From: Gammaproteobacteria bacterium
GTDB lineage: Bacteria; Pseudomonadota; Gammaproteobacteria; Ga0077536
Reading direction: 5' to 3'
NCBI GenBank assembly: GCA_021773835.1
Contig: JAJFJQ010000031.1
Location: forward strand, 62,001-126,000
Length of the DNA: 64,000 nt
A model generated the notes under the pieces. The model worked only from the letters and a program-made list of their open reading frames with translations. It made no database searches and was not told the DNA's origin. Both the position numbers and the translations under genes were made by a program. Each line of letters starts with the position of its first letter. Within the stretch, counting starts at the first letter, position 1. This document shows positions 5,192-49,431 of the stretch, piece after piece.

Positions 5192-7036
5192 TTAATCTCC
5201 TTCGCCCGGCGGCACGATGTCCCAGCGGATCATCATGGCGTGGTCTTCGTGGACAACGTTATGGCAATGCATGACATGCTTGCCGAGAAAATCACGCCAT
5301 CGGCCGAAAAACTTGATTTCGTCGCCAGGCCCCAGAGTGACAACGTCTTTACGTGCCTTCAGTACATCACCGTCCGTAACGGGTTTGCCGTTTACCTCGA
5401 GGATTTGGAATTCTTCGAAATGGGTATGCACTGGATGTGCCCACGCATTGCCGGCATTGCGAAAGGTCCAAATTTCCGCTGAGCCCTGCTCGATCGCCGC
5501 GTCAACGCGATTCGGATCCATCAAGCGGCCATTGATCGTCCACAGGCCATTGTCATAGTCGAAAACGAATAGCCTCTCGCGCCGTACCTCGCGCATATCA
5601 ACCTTTGGCAATTTGCGCATTTTCCTAGGTATCCGCGAGGGGTCGCGCACTTTGCCGGGTAGCAATCGAAACTCCATTAAGCCGTCGCCGTCTTCCAACA
5701 TCCGACCAGAAGGACCGGCACCATCGGGCCGCATTTCAAGGCGGTTGACCAAATAAACTTTGTCCTCTGGTGAGTACCTGGAGAAGTCGACGATGACGTC
5801 GTGACGTTGCGCCACCCACACTGAGATGCTTTTTTGCTTGAGCGGTCGCTCAAGTAGGTTTCCGTCCGTAGAAATAACAACAAAATTGTCGTCGTAAGGT
5901 TCGCCGTCCGCGGGTACGACATGTAGAAAAAGCGTGTAAAGGCGTGATGGCCCGCCATTCAAGATGCGGAATCGATACTTGCGCCGTTTGACTTCAAAAT
6001 ACGGTTGTATGATGCGGTTGACCGTGAACCGGTCGCCAATCATGCCATTGGTGGTGTAGGCCTGCGGCTCAGGGCCATACTCGTTCGATGTTCCCTGCGA
6101 ATTGCCGGTATCTGGAAATTCCGCACCGTGTACGGGGCCGGGGTTAAAAAAATCCCACACCACTTGGCCGTCTTCATCGAATTGTATGTCGTGCAATATC
6201 AGCGGTACGTCGAATTCGCCGCTCGGTAGCCTAAATGCCTTGCGACTGCGGTCTCTCTCATTGTTACTGTCGCGTTCGTCGAACAGTAAATAGAAACCGG
6301 TTAGACCCGCATAGACATTTGGTGCCGTGAAATCGAGACGGTGATCGTGATACCACAATGTCGCCATGATCTCGCGTCGATCAAAGCCGGCCGCAAAGTT
6401 GGCATAGTGGTGATCCCAGAATTCTCCTGGATTAAAAAAATCCATCGGGATCCCGTCGCTTTCCGAGGCTGTGTGCGCATTATGAAGATGGACGGTTGTC
6501 GACGGTAACGCGAAGCCGATATTCCCTTCGCCAACATCCGGCAACCAATTTTCTCGGCGTAGAAAGATGGGTTCGCCATAGTATGCGTGGTAGGTCTCAC
6601 CCGGCACTTGCCCGTTGAAGCCCCACGACCACGAGCCGACATTCTCATCACCAAGTCGGCCGACGTTGCCCTCGACGCCATCGCCGTAAGGCGCTTCATG
6701 ATGATATTTCCAGCGAAATTCGCTGAGGACCTCGCGATAGAATTGCTCAGGTGTGAAGTCATCCCATCTTTGGTGGCGTTCCGGATCCGGCTCTGGATCG
6801 TAGGATCCCGGGTCGATCGGTTCCGCGATCCGCATAACATGCAACGGCGCCGTAAATGGTGTTACCGGTGGGCTCGGATTAGCGACGATGCTCGTTTCAA
6901 GGTTGTCAGGAAATACGAGGCCAGATTGTGGGAAGCTGTCCCATTTTGGGGTCGCCTGGGCTTCTGGAACTTTCGACGCTAGGCCCACTCCGGCGGCGGC
7001 AAGGCCTAGTTTTAGCGTATCTCGCCTTTTGGTCAT
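5192..7036 (-). CDS. Tat-exported multicopper oxidase (CotA/bilirubin-oxidase-like)
   Basis: This is a three-domain copper oxidase of 614 residues from the chosen ATG. That start follows GAGGTG and opens the Tat leader MTKRRDTLKLGLAAAG; the frame remains open 90 bases further upstream. All four copper motifs are present: HLHNAH (about 183-188), WYHDH (228-232), HPVHTH (534-539) and HCHNVVHEDHAMM (590-602). The last gives the type 1 copper cysteine with an axial methionine, as in CotA and bilirubin oxidase. The family couples one-electron oxidation of phenols, bilirubin-like compounds or metal ions to reduction of oxygen to water. It is the first gene of the operon that includes two SCO-fold proteins and a cytochrome. 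The substrate cannot be read from sequence. Confidence 0.92.
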   Translation of the reverse strand: MTKRRDTLKLGLAAAGVGLASKVPEAQATPKWDSFPQSGLVFPDNLETSIVANPSPPVTPFTAPLHVMRIAEPIDPGSYDPEPDPERHQRWDDFTPEQFYREVLSEFRWKYHHEAPYGDGVEGNVGRLGDENVGSWSWGFNGQVPGETYHAYYGEPIFLRRENWLPDVGEGNIGFALPSTTVHLHNAHTASESDGIPMDFFNPGEFWDHHYANFAAGFDRREIMATLWYHDHRLDFTAPNVYAGLTGFYLLFDERDSNNERDRSRKAFRLPSGEFDVPLILHDIQFDEDGQVVWDFFNPGPVHGAEFPDTGNSQGTSNEYGPEPQAYTTNGMIGDRFTVNRIIQPYFEVKRRKYRFRILNGGPSRLYTLFLHVVPADGEPYDDNFVVISTDGNLLERPLKQKSISVWVAQRHDVIVDFSRYSPEDKVYLVNRLEMRPDGAGPSGRMLEDGDGLMEFRLLPGKVRDPSRIPRKMRKLPKVDMREVRRERLFVFDYDNGLWTINGRLMDPNRVDAAIEQGSAEIWTFRNAGNAWAHPVHTHFEEFQILEVNGKPVTDGDVLKARKDVVTLGPGDEIKFFGRWRDFLGKHVMHCHNVVHEDHAMMIRWDIVPPGEGD

Positions 7037-7545
7037 CGTGTCACCTCTGCAATAGGTCTGAACTGTTGCATCGTTAAGCTGTCGGCCGCGCGGTTTTTTG
7101 TAGGCACCGGTGCAGGCACGTCTCAAACGCCGCTATAGCGCGCGCCAGCACGCCGGCGGGCATATACGGCGATTCCGATCGCTGCATTTTGCTCGCTGAG
7201 ACTATATAGATAAAGTGCATATAAATAGATTTTATAAAATAAAAATATTCTGAAACATTTCCCAGACTAACAATATGCCCATTTTTTTACGATAAACAGA
7301 GGTGTAAATTTTTGGTAATTCTTCACACTTTCTTTGGCGCTAGAACGGTTTTTTGTGGGGGAGGATGGTCTTCCGTAGGTTGGCGTAGTACAGAAATTGC
7401 CGTCGAATCACCGCGTGTTGCGGGACGATTGCCGGGCAAATTGCCTGGCCGCAGCGCTGATGCGGTGGCGATCTCGAAGAAAGCTTAGCTTATCGCATCG
7501 ATGTCGACGGGCGGGTCGCCGGCGATGATGCGCCGGTTTCGGGCC
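7037..7545. promoter_or_regulatory. Gene-free stretch with AT-rich promoter region for the oxidase operon
   Basis: About 500 bases hold no convincing gene. The part at 7195-7335 is strikingly AT-rich, with several TATAAA- and TATAT-like hexamers and a poly-T run, unlike the GC-rich surroundings. It sits just upstream of the minus-strand oxidase operon, so it is the obvious promoter zone. No single -35/-10 pair could be fixed by eye. The remainder, next to the end of the CobW gene at 7546, shows nothing clear. Confidence 0.4.
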
Positions 7546-8672
<1,127 letters not shown>

Positions 8673-42393: not shown

Positions 42394-44352
42394 TTAGTTA
42401 TCTGAGAGCTCACTACTGTTGCCGACCGGTGCGGCAAAGGCGTCACTCAGTATACGATCAACACTGTCGCCGGTGAGCGACTTCAGGAACGCCACGAGAT
42501 TGCTTTTCTCGATTTCGGTTAGTCCGAGCGGGCGAATGAGCGGGTCGAGGCCCTCGTTTTCCACACCGCCGTGGTTGTAAAATTCAACGACCGTAGCCAG
42601 TGTGCCCAGAGAACCATCGTGCATGTAGGGGGCGGTTAGGTCTACATTACGTAAGCTTGGCGTTCGATATTTCCATCGATCGTTGGGATCCTGCGTTATC
42701 TCGTAGTATCCGAGATCGCCTGGTGGTCGCTCGCTGGATTCGGCGACTGCATTCGGATCGACATCAATGAAGATGCCCGGTGCCAGTAGCACGCGCTGCG
42801 CTTCAGTTGGGGTCTTGTGCATCGACCGCTGATAACCAATGCCTGTGTTATGGACTTGATGGTCAGTAAATAGCGCGTGGCTTCTATCTATCAGGTGACA
42901 CGAACTGCAACGACCCTTACCGGTAAAAACCTTAAAGCCCTTACGCACTTCGTCGCCGACGGCGGATTCGTTAGCACCAAAGTGCCATTGATCGAAGGGA
43001 CTATTTCCGGACACCAAGGTTCGTTCATAACTTGCGAGAGCCATGCCGATATTGCTTAGGCTTGCACTTTCGCCGGCAAATGCTTGCTCAAATAATCCGC
43101 GGTAGTCCGGTAGGCTACGCAATTTGTTGACAACTGCACTGACAGACGGGTTGGCCATCTCATTGGCCGCTAACAGCGGTTGCCAGATCTGATGTTCGAG
43201 ACGATCATCGCGCGCATCATGGAATAATTTGCGGAGGTAACCGACGTTGTAGATCGTCGGTGAGTTGCGCCGGACAGTGCGGCCCTCAACCCCTACTGCA
43301 GTGGCGAGTTCGTTGTGTGCGAAGCCTTGTTCTGGCACATGGCACATGGCGCAAGAAATTGTTTGATTGAGCGAAAGTCGGCGATCGAAGAATATCTTGC
43401 GCCCAAGCGCTACCTTGTCCGCCGTCAGCGGATTTTCCGGCGGTATGGGCATCGCCGGTAAACCAAGCGGCACCGGATCGATCAGACTCAAGAGATCCTG
43501 GCGCGCGCCGCGCCGATTCGGTAAATAATCCGATTGCGTTTCGTACTCGCGGTGCTCGTAACCCGCTTTATCATCGCCCGCACCATGAAGACTAGTATTT
43601 TCGGTTGCCACCTTTAGCGGACCGGCTGGTGCCGGTTCGTCTAGGATGGTCTTGAGGTCATTAATAATGGTGTCCGCGTGCAAGAACGACACGCTATAGA
43701 TGTTGCGAATGTTGCGGTTCGTATCGATCAAATAGACGCGCAAGATATGCGAATACGTACTCAGCGCGTTGCCATTTTCATCGTACTCGCGCGCGACCGT
43801 TTGATTGTAGCGCTTTAGGATCGGTTGCAGCTTCTCTTCGCTCTCGCAGGTTAGAAAACGCCAGTCGGTCTCGTCCGTGCGGAAGCTGCGGCCATAGTTC
43901 TGCATGACCGTTGGCGTGTCATGTCCCGGATCAAAGCTTAAACTGAGCAGGCGCACGCGATCCTCTAGCGCCGGGTCGGCTTCGATCCGTTTTGCAACTT
44001 TGCTAAAGACATAGGTTGCCAGCGGACAACCGTTGACGTCGTCGCAACTGGTGTAGACAAAGCTCAGCAAAACGGGTTTTTCACCCAGCAGACTCCCAAG
44101 CTGGAGCGGCGCTCCGTCACTTGTGAGCACTTCACCGTCTCCTGCCGCACTGAGCACTGGAAGCTCATAGGTACCGGCGGCCGGTGCGGCGAAGGAGAGA
44201 TCCGAATAGCCCGGCGCTAGAATGACGGGCTCGTCATCCGGTTCGTGTTGATCGCCGTGGGCCATCACGCCCACGGCAACTATTAAGGCACTAACGAATA
44301 GCGTTAGTTGGTAGACCCTGGTTAGATTGTGCTGATAACGGCAAATCCGCAT
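42394..44352 (-). CDS. SCO1/SenC-MauG fusion: maturation protein for methanethiol oxidase
   Basis: One 652-residue exported chain carries two domains. The N-terminal signal peptide is followed by a SCO1/SenC fold (about 55-240): FVYTSCDDVNGCPLA gives C103 and C109, spaced CX5C instead of CX3C, with the distal histidine in TYSHILRVYLID (H202). The C-terminal di-haem cytochrome c peroxidase/MauG domain (about 290-640) has haem sites CAMCH (334-338) and CSSCH (482-486). In methylotrophs the genes after mtoX encode separate SCO1/SenC and MauG proteins. Here they are fused, and the ATG overlaps the mtoX stop as TAATG. Probable role: copper delivery and oxidative maturation of MtoX in the periplasm. 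Confidence 0.92.
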   Translation of the reverse strand: MRICRYQHNLTRVYQLTLFVSALIVAVGVMAHGDQHEPDDEPVILAPGYSDLSFAAPAAGTYELPVLSAAGDGEVLTSDGAPLQLGSLLGEKPVLLSFVYTSCDDVNGCPLATYVFSKVAKRIEADPALEDRVRLLSLSFDPGHDTPTVMQNYGRSFRTDETDWRFLTCESEEKLQPILKRYNQTVAREYDENGNALSTYSHILRVYLIDTNRNIRNIYSVSFLHADTIINDLKTILDEPAPAGPLKVATENTSLHGAGDDKAGYEHREYETQSDYLPNRRGARQDLLSLIDPVPLGLPAMPIPPENPLTADKVALGRKIFFDRRLSLNQTISCAMCHVPEQGFAHNELATAVGVEGRTVRRNSPTIYNVGYLRKLFHDARDDRLEHQIWQPLLAANEMANPSVSAVVNKLRSLPDYRGLFEQAFAGESASLSNIGMALASYERTLVSGNSPFDQWHFGANESAVGDEVRKGFKVFTGKGRCSSCHLIDRSHALFTDHQVHNTGIGYQRSMHKTPTEAQRVLLAPGIFIDVDPNAVAESSERPPGDLGYYEITQDPNDRWKYRTPSLRNVDLTAPYMHDGSLGTLATVVEFYNHGGVENEGLDPLIRPLGLTEIEKSNLVAFLKSLTGDSVDRILSDAFAAPVGNSSELSDN

Positions 44353-45740
44353 TAATGTTCGGCAAACAGGGTATCCGTCGCTTTAGTCGGTCGCTTGCCA
44401 TAGAGGGCATTCGAACCGAAACGCATTTGGTGCGGACGACCCAGTTTCTCTGCGCCAAAGTCGATGGTGAACTTGTGCACTAGCTTGCCGTTGTCCCAGG
44501 TATAGGCCTTGAAGTAATCCAAGTCGACACCCTCGGGTGCGGTCTTTTTATCCCAGTTGCCGAGCAGGGAGGAGGTGTAATAGACCCGCGATCCATCCCA
44601 GCTCTGCGACACCATATTGACCTGTGCGCCGATGTTTTCAGTGAACGTTTCTTTCGGCGCATGCGGATCCGAGATATCGAATAACCGCGTCATCCCATCG
44701 TTCCAGGTGTTGACCCATAGTAAATTGTCATCGGCGCTAATAGAAATATCGACCGGCAGCGGGATCTTGCTCGCATCGCCAATATCAGCCACATCCTTGG
44801 CATGCCACTCACCGGCATCGTCTTCGTAGATCAGCCAAATCTTCGAGGTTAGTGCAGTCGTTGTAAAACAATAGTCGTTCTTCGGTCCCCAAGCGCAGCG
44901 CACTTCAAGCGGCGCACCGGGTACGTCCAGGATTTTTTTGGGTTTGCGAGTATGCAGGTTCCACACGACGACGGTGTTGCCAAAACGTTTCATTGCCTCG
45001 GGATCACCCATCATCTTGCCGAGGTCCATCATGTAGTTGTTCCAGCCGGTAAACGAGGAGGTCACCATGACATTGCGTCGGGGCAGCACACGCACGTCGT
45101 AGCCGTAACCATCGGCAAATTTGCCGGACTTTACCGCGCCGCCGAGATTTTCGTCCGTTGGCATCCAGTAGGTCTCGATGTACTCACCGGCATTGGTGTA
45201 CTCAGCCATTCCCGTGCGACCACCGTGGTCCTTATCATTCGACAAACCGGTGACCAACATGCGGCCGGGTAGTGCATAGGTGGTATGTGGGCCAACTATG
45301 CCGCCGGTTTTTGCCGGGAAGTCGTCGATAGTTTTGTGCAGCGAGGGTTTCGCCGGATTGCTGTGAACATCGAAGATGAAGATTTTGTTCGTATCAAGGC
45401 CTCCGGCCCAGAGATAATGACGGTCGTCGGTAAGCCCAGAATGATGCGCCTCATTACGTCCCCCAACCGAAAGCGAATCAATGATCTTGCCGTACTTCGA
45501 CGAATTTGGGTTTACATCGATGGTCACCAGCTTGTCCGAGCCATCGCCGACGCCTTCTATTCCTAAGGTCCAGACATAGATGTAATCCTCTTGTCCCACG
45601 ATCTTCGCCATGTACGGCGACATGCAAGTTTCATCCGCGCTAACCGGCACTGCGAGGAATGGTATGAGCAGCACGCATGACGCGGTAAGCTGCTGTAGAA
45701 ATCGTGACAGGCTACGATTGTGCTTGTTCGATATTTTCAT
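44352..45740 (-). CDS. mtoX: Methanethiol oxidase (SBP56/SELENBP1 family)
   Basis: A 462-residue protein of the selenium-binding-protein family with the hallmark start TCMSPYMAKIVGQEDYIYV (C39), preceded by a signal peptide ending near PVSADE. Other conserved stretches are GGRNEAHHSGLTDDRHYLW, SSFTGWNNYMMDLGKMM and KLGRPHQMRFGSNALY. The bacterial enzyme is a periplasmic copper protein that oxidises methanethiol to formaldehyde, hydrogen sulfide and hydrogen peroxide. Assignment as MtoX rests on the export signal and on the downstream SCO1-MauG gene, the context known for mtoX. It is the first gene of a two-gene unit. Confidence 0.9.
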   Translation of the reverse strand: MKISNKHNRSLSRFLQQLTASCVLLIPFLAVPVSADETCMSPYMAKIVGQEDYIYVWTLGIEGVGDGSDKLVTIDVNPNSSKYGKIIDSLSVGGRNEAHHSGLTDDRHYLWAGGLDTNKIFIFDVHSNPAKPSLHKTIDDFPAKTGGIVGPHTTYALPGRMLVTGLSNDKDHGGRTGMAEYTNAGEYIETYWMPTDENLGGAVKSGKFADGYGYDVRVLPRRNVMVTSSFTGWNNYMMDLGKMMGDPEAMKRFGNTVVVWNLHTRKPKKILDVPGAPLEVRCAWGPKNDYCFTTTALTSKIWLIYEDDAGEWHAKDVADIGDASKIPLPVDISISADDNLLWVNTWNDGMTRLFDISDPHAPKETFTENIGAQVNMVSQSWDGSRVYYTSSLLGNWDKKTAPEGVDLDYFKAYTWDNGKLVHKFTIDFGAEKLGRPHQMRFGSNALYGKRPTKATDTLFAEH

Positions 45741-46116: not shown

Positions 46117-47013
46117 GTGAGTCAGTCAAGCTTGCATACGGCGTTCGTTCGAGCGGCGCCGGCCCTCTTTGTATTCTTGTGGTCTACCGGTTACGTCGGT
46201 GGACGGTTCGCCATCCCGTACGCCGATCCAATAACCTTCACGTCAATTCGCTTCACTATCGTCGTGATCCTCTTGACCTTGATTGTCACGCTTAGCCGAC
46301 GCCAACTACCGCGGCGATTGAGTATGTGGGGTCACCTTGCAGTATCTGGTGTACTCATTCACGCGGGCTTCGTCGGCGGCCTGTTCATTGCCATCGATTT
46401 GGGCGTGAATATTGGCGTTGCATCGTTGATTGCCGGCACGCAACCACTGCTCACTGCCGTTGCGGTGATCCCGCTGTTGGGGGAAACGCTGAGCAAGCGG
46501 CAATGGTTTGGTTTCGTAATTGGATTTTTGGGTCTGGCGATGGTGGTATTAAAGGCCTTGGAACTCGGTGCATTGCCGATCGCAGGGCTCATTGCCTGTG
46601 TCGTCGGCTTGTGCGGTATTACCTTCGGCTCGCTTTATCAGAAACGCTTTGTTGTCGGGATCGATCTATTGGCCGGATCGGTTATCCAGTTTTCTGCAGC
46701 ATTATTGCCCTGTCTGGTGTGGGCATTTCTTTTTGAGACGCGGTCTATCGAATGGAATACGACCGTGATACTGACGTTGGCGTGGATGTGTCTGGGATTG
46801 TCGATTGGGGCGATTTCTATCTTGCTTTTTCTTATTCGAGAGGGCGCGGCCTCGAAGGTGTCTAGTCTCTTCTACTTAGTACCACCAGCTACGGCGTTGC
46901 AGGGTTATTGGTTATTTGACGAACGCTTGAGTCTTATCCAAGTTGCAGGAATTGTCATGGCCACAATTGGGGTTGCGCTGATAAATAGTGGAAGTAGCAC
47001 AACTGTGAGGTAA
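46117..47013 (+). CDS. EamA/DMT-superfamily transporter
   Basis: A 298-residue inner-membrane protein with ten hydrophobic helices in two EamA repeats. The signature FLWSTGYVGGRFAIPYADP at the start and PLLGETLSKRQWFGFVIGFLG in the middle are typical; the second repeat ends with YWLFDERLSLIQVAGIVM. Start is a GTG. The family exports or exchanges small metabolites such as amino acids. Divergent from mtoX and convergent with the sulfur operon, so it may export a sulfur or C1 metabolite, but that is a guess. Confidence 0.88.
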   Translation: MSQSSLHTAFVRAAPALFVFLWSTGYVGGRFAIPYADPITFTSIRFTIVVILLTLIVTLSRRQLPRRLSMWGHLAVSGVLIHAGFVGGLFIAIDLGVNIGVASLIAGTQPLLTAVAVIPLLGETLSKRQWFGFVIGFLGLAMVVLKALELGALPIAGLIACVVGLCGITFGSLYQKRFVVGIDLLAGSVIQFSAALLPCLVWAFLFETRSIEWNTTVILTLAWMCLGLSIGAISILLFLIREGAASKVSSLFYLVPPATALQGYWLFDERLSLIQVAGIVMATIGVALINSGSSTTVR

Positions 47014-47054: not shown

Positions 47055-47588
47055 TCACGATTTAGCGGATCCGCTTTGGGCGCGCTGCAGCCCTTCGCCG
47101 AATTTCAGCAAAAATTGCAGCGTTTGCTGCGACTCCGGTTTCGACAATAGTGACAACATTGAAAGAACGCCGCCGCTGGCCGGGGCTTTAGCGGATTCGG
47201 TCGCGGCCTGCTCGAGCGATTGTAGGACGTCGTCTGCGGTTTGGACCATCGCATCGCTGCCGAGTGTATTGGCGGCCTGCTCGACGAAAGTAAACAAGCG
47301 CTCGACGATGCTGTCGGTCGCAGCCGAACGCATTGCATGCAGTAGCAAGACGGTCTGGCATAAGGTGTCGAGAGCACCGAGTCGATGAAACTCGGTTAAG
47401 CGATCGATAAGCGTGTGTACTGCCGCTCGCGTTTCTTCTTCATTTAAGCGATCGACGACTTCTAGGGCAACGCCTGCCGTTGTGGCTAAGCGTTCAACCA
47501 TGGAGTCAGTTAATGCATCACGTGCCGCTTGGATGCCGCGCTGGATTTCGTCAGGCGCGTCAGCGTTTGCTGTCATTGGAGTAGCCAT
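47055..47588 (-). CDS. DUF1641-family protein
   Basis: A 177-residue, mostly helical protein of the DUF1641 type: LTEFHRLGALDTLCQTVLLLHAM and LEQAATESAKAP segments. The ATG at 47588 has AGAGGA in front, 11 bases after the SQR-like stop; the frame is open from 47627 without support. DUF1641 proteins commonly accompany sulfide:quinone oxidoreductase-like flavoproteins and other dehydrogenases, with no established activity. It is the last gene of the sulfur operon. Confidence 0.85.
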   Translation of the reverse strand: MATPMTANADAPDEIQRGIQAARDALTDSMVERLATTAGVALEVVDRLNEEETRAAVHTLIDRLTEFHRLGALDTLCQTVLLLHAMRSAATDSIVERLFTFVEQAANTLGSDAMVQTADDVLQSLEQAATESAKAPASGGVLSMLSLLSKPESQQTLQFLLKFGEGLQRAQSGSAKS

Positions 47589-47599
47589 TGCAATTCCTC

Positions 47600-48739
47600 T
47601 TAAAGTAATCCGCGAGCGGAGAGCCAATAGAGGCGGTTGTAGGCAAGTTTGAACCAGTGGACCATTTGTGATGGCGCACCGGGGTTTGGCGGCGTGGTGT
47701 AGTTAAACCAGACGTAAGTTCCTTGGTTCATCCCGGTTTCGACGAAACAGAACACCTTGCCGTCATATTTCCGCGCCATACGGCCTTCGGTCACCAGCGA
47801 GCTTAGGTTGTCGATAATCGTGTCGGCCTCGAAGTGAGCGGTGGAGCCGGCTTTCGAGATCGGTATATTGGTGGTGTCGCCGCATACAAAGACGTCCGTT
47901 GTGCCTTCGTGTAACAAAGTTTCGCGCTCAGTCGGCACCCACCCTCCGGCACCAAGATCGGAGTCCGTAATAACTTGCGAACCATGGTGCGGTGGAATGG
48001 TGACCAGTAAATCGTATTCAATGTCGCTCTCTTCTTCCGACGAGATAACCTTTTTCTCTACATCGATCGATTTCGTATTGAAGAACGTCTCATACTTGAT
48101 CCCGGCCTTGTCGAATTCGGGTTGGGTCCAATTCGCGACTGGTTCCAGCGCGTGCAAACGTCCAATGGGATAGGTGTAGGTGATTTCCGTTTTGTCACCC
48201 AAGCCGCGTTCTTGTAAATAATCGCGCAACATGAAGGTGATCTCGAGTGGCGCGACCGGGCATTTGTGTGGTGCATTAACGTTAACCACAATTTTGCCGC
48301 CGTCGAAGCCTTCAAGTGCCTCGCGCATCTTGCGTGCACCGTCCAAGTCGTAAAACCAATGGGCGCCTTCCGCCATCCCAGGTACGGTATCTGGACGCAA
48401 ACGAGAACCCGTCGCTAACACGAGATAGTCGTATTCGTGGGTCGTGCCGGACTCAGTTGCCACTGACTTGGTACTAATGTCGATCTTGGTCGCCGGATCC
48501 ACATGGAAAATAACCCGTCGATCCAGCACGCTGCGTTGGTCGCGGAACAGGTCTTTTTCGCGGATCCGGCCAAATGGCACGTACAGGAGCCCGGGCTGAT
48601 ACATGTGCTGCTCGTTGTTACCAATGACGGTAATGGTCACTTCATTGGCGCGTAGCTCTTTACCGAGTTGGCGGCAAAGTCCGTTGGCGATGATGGTGCC
48701 GGCGAGGCCGCCACCAACGATAAGTATTTTCTTAGCCAT
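47600..48739 (-). CDS. Sulfide:quinone oxidoreductase-like FAD protein
   Basis: A 379-residue flavoprotein from the ATG at 48739 (GGGAGCG upstream), with the FAD-binding N-terminus KILIVGGGLAGTIIANGLCR and the second FAD motif TDVFVCGDTTNIPISKAGS. Cysteines C160 (HKCPVAPLEIT) and C331 (VFCFVETG) occupy the places of the redox pair of sulfide:quinone oxidoreductase and flavocytochrome c. It would oxidise sulfide to sulfane sulfur and reduce quinone at the membrane. In this context it can take up the sulfide made by MtoX and pass sulfur to TusA. Confidence 0.88.
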   Translation of the reverse strand: MAKKILIVGGGLAGTIIANGLCRQLGKELRANEVTITVIGNNEQHMYQPGLLYVPFGRIREKDLFRDQRSVLDRRVIFHVDPATKIDISTKSVATESGTTHEYDYLVLATGSRLRPDTVPGMAEGAHWFYDLDGARKMREALEGFDGGKIVVNVNAPHKCPVAPLEITFMLRDYLQERGLGDKTEITYTYPIGRLHALEPVANWTQPEFDKAGIKYETFFNTKSIDVEKKVISSEEESDIEYDLLVTIPPHHGSQVITDSDLGAGGWVPTERETLLHEGTTDVFVCGDTTNIPISKAGSTAHFEADTIIDNLSSLVTEGRMARKYDGKVFCFVETGMNQGTYVWFNYTTPPNPGAPSQMVHWFKLAYNRLYWLSARGLL

Positions 48740-48786
48740 GTTTCGCTCCCGTTCGTTTGGACTATTATTGTGTAGGCGTGTGGTTA

Positions 48787-49017
48787 TTATTTTATTTTTC
48801 GCACGACGATATGCCAAAAATCTCCTTCTTCTTCGATTCCAACCATTTCATGCTTTACTTTTTCTACCCATGCCGGGATGTCGATCGCCGATCCCTTGTC
48901 GCTTGAGAGGACATCAATTTCGTCGCCTATTTCGACAAGCTTTAGGGTGGCGATTAATTCCATTAGCGGGCCCGGACAGAAAGCCCCGCGTGCGTCAATT
49001 GTTGTTCGTTCGCTCAT
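48787..49017 (-). CDS. TusA-family sulfur carrier protein
   Basis: A 76-residue TusA-fold protein with the catalytic CPGP motif (C14-P17) in GAFCPGPLMELI. The cysteine carries a persulfide. It lies between the DsrE-type gene (21 bases upstream) and the SQR-like gene, so it likely shuttles sulfane sulfur between them, as TusA/DsrE pairs do in dissimilatory sulfur oxidisers. Such carriers can also serve tRNA thiolation, but the neighbours favour sulfur oxidation. Confidence 0.92.
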   Translation of the reverse strand: MSERTTIDARGAFCPGPLMELIATLKLVEIGDEIDVLSSDKGSAIDIPAWVEKVKHEMVGIEEEGDFWHIVVRKIK

Positions 49018-49038
49018 GATTAAAGTGTAACCGATCGA

Positions 49039-49431
49039 TTAAAAGACTATTAGCTGGCCGGACTCGGCGTCGGACAGAAACTTTGTCAATCCACCGGCGT
49101 CATCTACCAGGTCTTCGACCAGGTCGTCGAGTTCCATTTGGGCAACATCCAGCGCCATTGAGCAGGCGAAAATTTTCATCTCGCCGAGCATCTTGCCTTG
49201 CCCGAACAGCTCAATTGCATCGGGTACATTGCGCTCTTTCATGACCTTCGAGAAATTCCCACCGCTATAGCGCTGCCCGTCGACATCTTTGCGAAATACC
49301 GCAAGCGCGTTCATGCTGACGAATACCTCGACTGGGCGATCGGAGACGGCCGCAACCGAAGCGGTCATTGCAGCCATTTGTATCTTTTCGTGCTCGCCGG
49401 AGCACAGGAGTATGAATAAGGGAGGTGTCAT
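49039..49431 (-). CDS. DsrE-family sulfur-trafficking protein
   Basis: A 130-residue DsrE/DsrF-like protein with a candidate sulfur-carrying cysteine C90 in MKIFACSMALDVAQM, and the PPLFILLCSGEHEKIQMA opening strand. It belongs to the DsrE2/peroxiredoxin-like subgroup by sequence style. First gene of the operon DsrE - TusA - SQR-like - DUF1641, so it probably exchanges sulfane sulfur with TusA. No membrane anchor is visible. Confidence 0.88.
   Translation of the reverse strand: MTPPLFILLCSGEHEKIQMAAMTASVAAVSDRPVEVFVSMNALAVFRKDVDGQRYSGGNFSKVMKERNVPDAIELFGQGKMLGEMKIFACSMALDVAQMELDDLVEDLVDDAGGLTKFLSDAESGQLIVF

Follow-up and report, generated by a model that had tools for sequence, protein, structure and literature searches.

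Two genes lie end to end on the reverse strand of the window, by which we mean the whole stretch of 64,000 nucleotides of DNA that was analysed. The first is mtoX; the second, directly downstream, joins a SCO1/SenC domain and a di-haem MauG-type domain in one protein. The features of the locus are as follows.

44352-45740, (-) strand: mtoX, SBP56 family, MtoX type, 462 aa (open reading frame, Pfam and NCBIfam)
42394-44352, (-) strand: SCO1/SenC-MauG fusion gene, 652 aa, directly downstream of mtoX
43657-44175, (-) strand: SCO1/SenC domain, residues ~60-232, with C103-DDVNG-C109 and H202
43465-43656, (-) strand: linker, residues 233-296, 64 aa
42397-43464, (-) strand: di-haem MauG/MbnH-type domain, residues 297-652, with CAMCH at 334-338, CSSCH at 482-486, H378 at the inter-haem position, Q388, W390, P392, E398, and Y592 at a haem ligand position
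46117-47013, divergent: EamA transporter, between mtoX and the flavoprotein gene
47600-48817, (-) strand: flavoprotein similar to type III sulfide:quinone reductase, lying ~1.9 kb upstream of mtoX

The mtoX product matched the SBP56 Pfam family with 175 bits and the NCBIfam model for methanethiol oxidase MtoX (NF052453) with 748.1 bits, above the curated cut-off of 650; on this family assignment the gene is identified as encoding a methanethiol oxidase (MTO) of the MtoX type. Residues C39, H99, H100, H152, H437, W233 and W396 of the window protein correspond to the positions discussed for Ruegeria MTO. In an alignment of 86 MtoX proteins, the copper-site histidines were kept in 85-86 sequences, C39 and W233 in all 86, and W396 in 85. 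One MtoX in this alignment (L139) has a proline in place of the conserved copper-ligand histidine at position 152 of the window protein. Distant SBP56 proteins have Pro or Ala in the W233 column, with their Trp 2 or 3 residues earlier depending on the alignment. Inspected by eye, the N-terminus of the window MtoX contains a hydrophobic stretch ending in VSA followed by DETC, and the protein is probably exported; the measured mature N-terminus of Hyphomicrobium MTO, as given in PMC5739008, begins DETX. Scanning viral sequences with MtoX turned up no relatives.

The mtoX stop codon (TAA) and the fusion start codon (ATG) share one base, 44352, which agrees with the overlap read in the original prediction. 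That prediction had also placed a SCO1/SenC domain (C103, C109, H202) and a MauG-type domain (CAMCH, CSSCH) in one open reading frame; both were recovered by Pfam, and all of these residues are present. The SCO1-SenC match covers fusion residues 87-214 with 55 bits (cut-off 22.8), and the CCP_MauG match covers residues 312-459 with 173.7 bits (cut-off 25.6). Residues C103, C109, H202, H338 and H486, as well as Q388, P392, E398 and Y592, are invariant in all 19 aligned fusions, among which the linker varies from 32 to 102 aa. The N-terminus of the fusion protein has a hydrophobic stretch, and export is probable here too. Its own genome has just one full-length copy of the gene; four other matches there, 31-44% identical, each cover part of one half only. 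A structure model of the fusion protein gave a mean pLDDT of 64 and a pTM of 0.45, with low confidence across much of the haem half and over residues 242-280 (linker), and no domain arrangement is claimed for this reason. Promoter and terminator scans returned chance-level numbers only.

SCO1-MauG fusions beside mtoX were already reported in the paper on the identification of MtoX, which names Methylophaga thiooxydans (PMC5739008), and a 2019 paper describes two mto clusters in that organism, each with such a fusion (PMC6548844). The published Methylophaga cases remove any claim of novelty, and the idea of the fusion as a new architecture was rejected; the window fusion is a real, correctly read example of a published architecture in a new organism. 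The premise of the original prediction that characterised mtoX loci keep the two partners separate is true for Hyphomicrobium VS and Ruegeria but fails for the fusions in these two papers. A maturation role for the SCO1/MauG partners of MTO was proposed in the first (PMC5739008); in the second, the fusion was proposed to process MTO in the periplasm, and both mtoX genes and both fusion genes of Methylophaga were induced on DMS (PMC6548844). Compared by description, mto-clusters 1 and 2 of M. thiooxydans resemble the window in that mtoX precedes an SCO1-MauG fusion for which a signal peptide is predicted. The clusters then run on to a TlpA-like gene, persulfide dioxygenase, SqrB and SulP (PMC6548844), whereas in the window the next downstream open reading frame on the same strand, counting those of 120 aa or more, is a P450. 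Hyphomicrobium sp. VS and Ruegeria pomeroyi (SPOA0269-0271) have the same functions in the same order as the window (mtoX-SCO1-mauG) but with SCO1 and mauG as two genes, which in Ruegeria are tandem neighbours with a 4-nt overlap. The Ruegeria MauG-like protein is 52% identical to the window haem half.

To survey the neighbourhood of mtoX, the GTDB species collection was scanned with an MtoX alignment, the best 80 loci of 544 confirmed relatives were taken, and their neighbours were classified by BLASTP. In 34 of these best 80 loci a fusion follows mtoX directly, and in another 39 SCO1 and MauG are separate genes. In 36 of the 39, SCO1 is downstream of mtoX and a divergent MauG gene is upstream, and in the remaining three (L111, L120 and L122) the genes are in tandem. 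Both partners, fused or separate, were thus found at 73 of the best 80 loci. The other seven were unclassified: six have contig ends near mtoX (L070, L092, L100, L106, L107 and L108), and the seventh is L110. This last locus has mtoX and SCO1, with no MauG in 4.9 kb upstream, where the contig ends, or in ~6 kb downstream, and is the one locus of the best 80 that might lack a member of the trio.

A reverse survey ran a fusion profile on 369 genomes of the class; at E 1e-60, 65 of these gave matches. We read the 33 places outside the own genome whose match took in the SCO1 part, a selection that could overlook a fusion whose SCO1 part had changed strongly; they comprised 24 fusions, eight separate-gene loci and one frameshifted fusion beside mtoX (L216). 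Twenty-two of the 24 fusions are directly downstream of mtoX (one of these mtoX genes is cut by a contig start), which rules out that such fusions occur mostly without mtoX. The expectation that they always adjoin it held for these 22. Both remaining genomes also contain mtoX or pieces of it: the L206 fusion is cut off at a contig start, with mtoX fragments elsewhere in its genome, and the L203 fusion (6015-8042) is unlinked to mtoX, which is on another contig and adjoins another MauG gene. The neighbours of the L203 fusion are a LysR-type gene (identified by eye), a metallo-beta-lactamase-fold protein and a sulfate permease. The two surveys overlap in some contigs (L124/L198, L081/L189, L066/L212) and are not independent.

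These counts also bear on the suggestion that two neighbouring genes were joined by an error of assembly or sequencing. Such neighbours do exist in tandem elsewhere, in L111, L120 and L122 and in Ruegeria. The window gene, however, is one uninterrupted frame of 652 codons, the same architecture recurs in the 34 loci and 24 places of the two partly overlapping surveys, and some fusions (L056, G526 and G634) are on contigs of several million bases. An error was accordingly rejected, with a probability that we regard as negligible. Several single loci differ in detail. In L116, L197, L204, L207 and L208 the fusion is followed directly by a second, stand-alone MauG-type gene, which in L116 is cut by the contig end. 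The L208 fusion has CAHCH as its first haem motif. The mtoX of L083 and the fusion of L216 are each split over two frames in draft assemblies, reflecting error or decay.

In a phylum sample of 398 genomes, a close mtoX (58-65% identity) was present in four further genomes, all with separate partners, and none of 11 distant SBP56 genes in this sample had SCO1 or MauG within ~8 kb. On these surveys, it is MtoX-type enzymes, and not the SBP56 family at large, that the fusion and the pair accompany, in line with the view that both partners are dedicated to MtoX. One genome (G244) speaks against strict exclusiveness: it has a MauG-type gene of the mtoX-linked branch and no mtoX match. This gene (L135, 5881-7101) encodes a protein 46% identical to the window haem half.

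The origin of the fusion was examined with three trees, one for the MauG parts (86 rows), one for the SCO1 parts (82 rows) and one for both joined (75 rows); their roots and deep branches are unsure. All three trees place the fusions in one group with separate-gene lineages nested inside, namely a Woeseiaceae group, Cycloclasticus and L111; SH-aLRT support for this group was 94 (MauG), 93 (joint) and 81 (SCO1). L130, L109 and L123 nest among the fusions in the SCO1 tree and fall outside them in the MauG and joint trees. The joint tree requires a minimum of four transitions between fused and split states, and a fusion-only clade was rejected at the borderline by the AU test (p-AU 0.049). One fusion event followed by about three later splits is our tentative reading of the trees, the number of splits being uncertain because of the borderline AU test and the different placement of L130, L109 and L123 in the SCO1 tree.

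The canonical SCO1 copper motif is CX3C together with a distal His. The window SCO1 domain, with CDDVNGCP, has CX5C in place of CX3C and retains the histidine (H202, as in 19/19 fusions). It passes the Pfam gathering score for SCO1/SenC and matches Sco folds (4hde, TM 0.84 by target), and is assigned to that family. All 85 mtoX-linked SCO1 domains have CX5C followed by P, mostly as C-x-D-x-N-G-C-P, in fused and separate forms alike; Ruegeria SCO1 has CX5C too, which was also found in 33/33 of a second, partly overlapping set. By comparison, CX3C was present in all 30 ordinary SCO1 proteins read (Pfam members, among more matches). Of 14 ordinary SCO genes located near mtoX, 13 also have CX3C, while no motif was obtained for the remaining one. 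A narrow literature search, by exact words, found no CX5C Sco protein, and the motif may be unreported.

The consistent CX5C raises the alternative that the SCO1 half is not a copper chaperone but a redoxin handling thiol-disulfide or persulfide chemistry at C39 of MtoX. This cysteine is present in 86/86 MtoX proteins and corresponds by residue mapping to Cys28 of Ruegeria MTO, which was required for activity (PMC10936201). We consider this reading improbable, given that the distal H202 is kept throughout the aligned fusions, the domain matches Sco folds, and MTO is described as a copper enzyme with a reported need for this metal (PMC5739008). A SCO1 half that delivers copper would fit that reported requirement.

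The haem half resembles MauG, the maturation enzyme of methylamine dehydrogenase, in its two c-haems, Tyr ligand position and Gln/Pro/Glu distal pocket. H378, Q388, P392 and E398 have the same spacing as Trp93, Gln103, Pro107 and Glu113 of MauG (numbers from PMC6405878 and PDB titles), and Y592 aligns with the Tyr ligand of Methylobacterium MauG. Among 76 mtoX-linked MauG-type proteins, P392 and E398 were kept in all, Tyr was found at the ligand position in 71 (two have Phe and three a gap) and Trp at position 390 in 69. The inter-haem Trp93 of MauG, by contrast, is His in the window protein; Trp was kept at this position in just 7/76, and 50 have His there. Among 35 relatives used for comparison whose genes do not adjoin mtoX, 31 retain the Trp; this set, made up of the best phylum matches and a small number of plasmid, own-genome and reference proteins, the last being one MauG and one MbnH, is not random. 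The window domain is also far from MauG in the tree and scored 208.9 bits against the NCBIfam MauG equivalog, below the cut-off of 443.85.

MbnH, the di-haem partner of the copper protein MbnP, gave the best NCBIfam and PDB sequence matches (TIGR04039 and 6e1c) and shares a copper context. The TIGR04039 score, 245 bits, is nevertheless below the cut-off of 362.85, and the window haem domain is on a separate branch. The MbnH gene adjoins that of MbnP, as was seen in Methylocystis, whereas the window gene is beside mtoX, its immediate upstream neighbour, and no MbnP was found among the scanned window neighbours of the fusion. A further di-haem enzyme, BthA of Burkholderia, is not known to have SCO1 or mtoX in its gene context. 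Like most of the mtoX-linked proteins, it combines Tyr-His ligation with the lack of an inter-haem Trp, for which it has Ser, and it still forms bis-Fe(IV) (PMC6405878). According to the same paper, the inter-haem Trp is necessary for TTQ biosynthesis by MauG (PMC6405878). Loss of this residue makes a TTQ reaction identical to that of MauG less certain and a BthA-like peroxidase role possible. It is common to fused and separate forms and, like CX5C, may be unreported; on these residue patterns the two features may mark the mtoX-linked pair as a subfamily of its own.

The haem half could then be a peroxidase removing H2O2 released by MtoX, with the SCO1 half alone serving maturation. Canonical peroxidases have a sixth haem ligand other than the Tyr position seen here, and a pure scavenger would not need fusion to a copper chaperone. 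What favours a peroxidase is that BthA, despite its Tyr-His ligation and missing Trp, turns H2O2 into water (PMC6405878), and that H2O2 is a product of the assumed MTO reaction (reaction 1, quoted in PMC10936201). The same paper reports no H2O2 from recombinant Ruegeria MTO (PMC10936201), and we hold this reading to be unlikely, if less so than the redoxin one.

From the observed domain architecture, residue conservation and linkage to mtoX, we favour, with some reserve, a fusion protein that works in the periplasm, where it would serve the maturation of one client, the methanethiol oxidase of the upstream gene, and combine copper loading with oxidative modification. In the order of steps that we infer, the SCO1 half, through its CX5C and His site, would load copper onto the MtoX histidine cluster (H99, H100, H152 and H437), and the tethered di-haem half, through its MauG/MbnH-type His-Tyr haem, would oxidatively modify MtoX residues, for which the W233/W396 pair is the published candidate. 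The oxidative role is suggested by family resemblance and linkage. Fusion would fix a 1:1 ratio and bring both activities to one client. Against this reading are the mostly lost inter-haem Trp, the scores below the MauG and MbnH cut-offs, and the G244 gene without mtoX. The strongest published point that we found against an essential maturation step is the reported activity on methanethiol of Ruegeria MtoX produced by itself in E. coli (PMC10936201); maturation may thus not be essential for that activity.

In the best reading, the haem chemistry of the MtoX maturation protein need not be that of MauG. Whether fused or separate, the SCO1 protein with expanded CX5C and the di-haem enzyme, which retains the Tyr-ligated haem but mostly has His for the inter-haem Trp, could form a distinct maturation pair that builds a copper site coupled to a modified MtoX residue by non-TTQ chemistry, a more specific proposal that we advance as a possibility with less confidence than the general maturation role.

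Upstream of mtoX, positions 47055-49431 on the (-) strand encode the sulfide:quinone reductase-like flavoprotein, a family-less protein and a DsrE-like protein. The flavoprotein scored 346 bits, below the cut-off of 525. Judged from these assignments, the genes are possibly a sulfur-oxidation module, with the flavoprotein as a candidate sulfur-oxidation partner.

The DMS/DMSP sulfur cycle includes methanethiol oxidation among its steps, and the mechanism of MtoX is disputed, with copper and a proposed TTQ cofactor in one paper and a reactive cysteine in another. The dedicated and sometimes fused pair at 73 of the best 80 loci argues that native MtoX needs something that was missing from the enzyme made in E. 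coli, and the CX5C and Trp-to-His features provide concrete residues to mutate.
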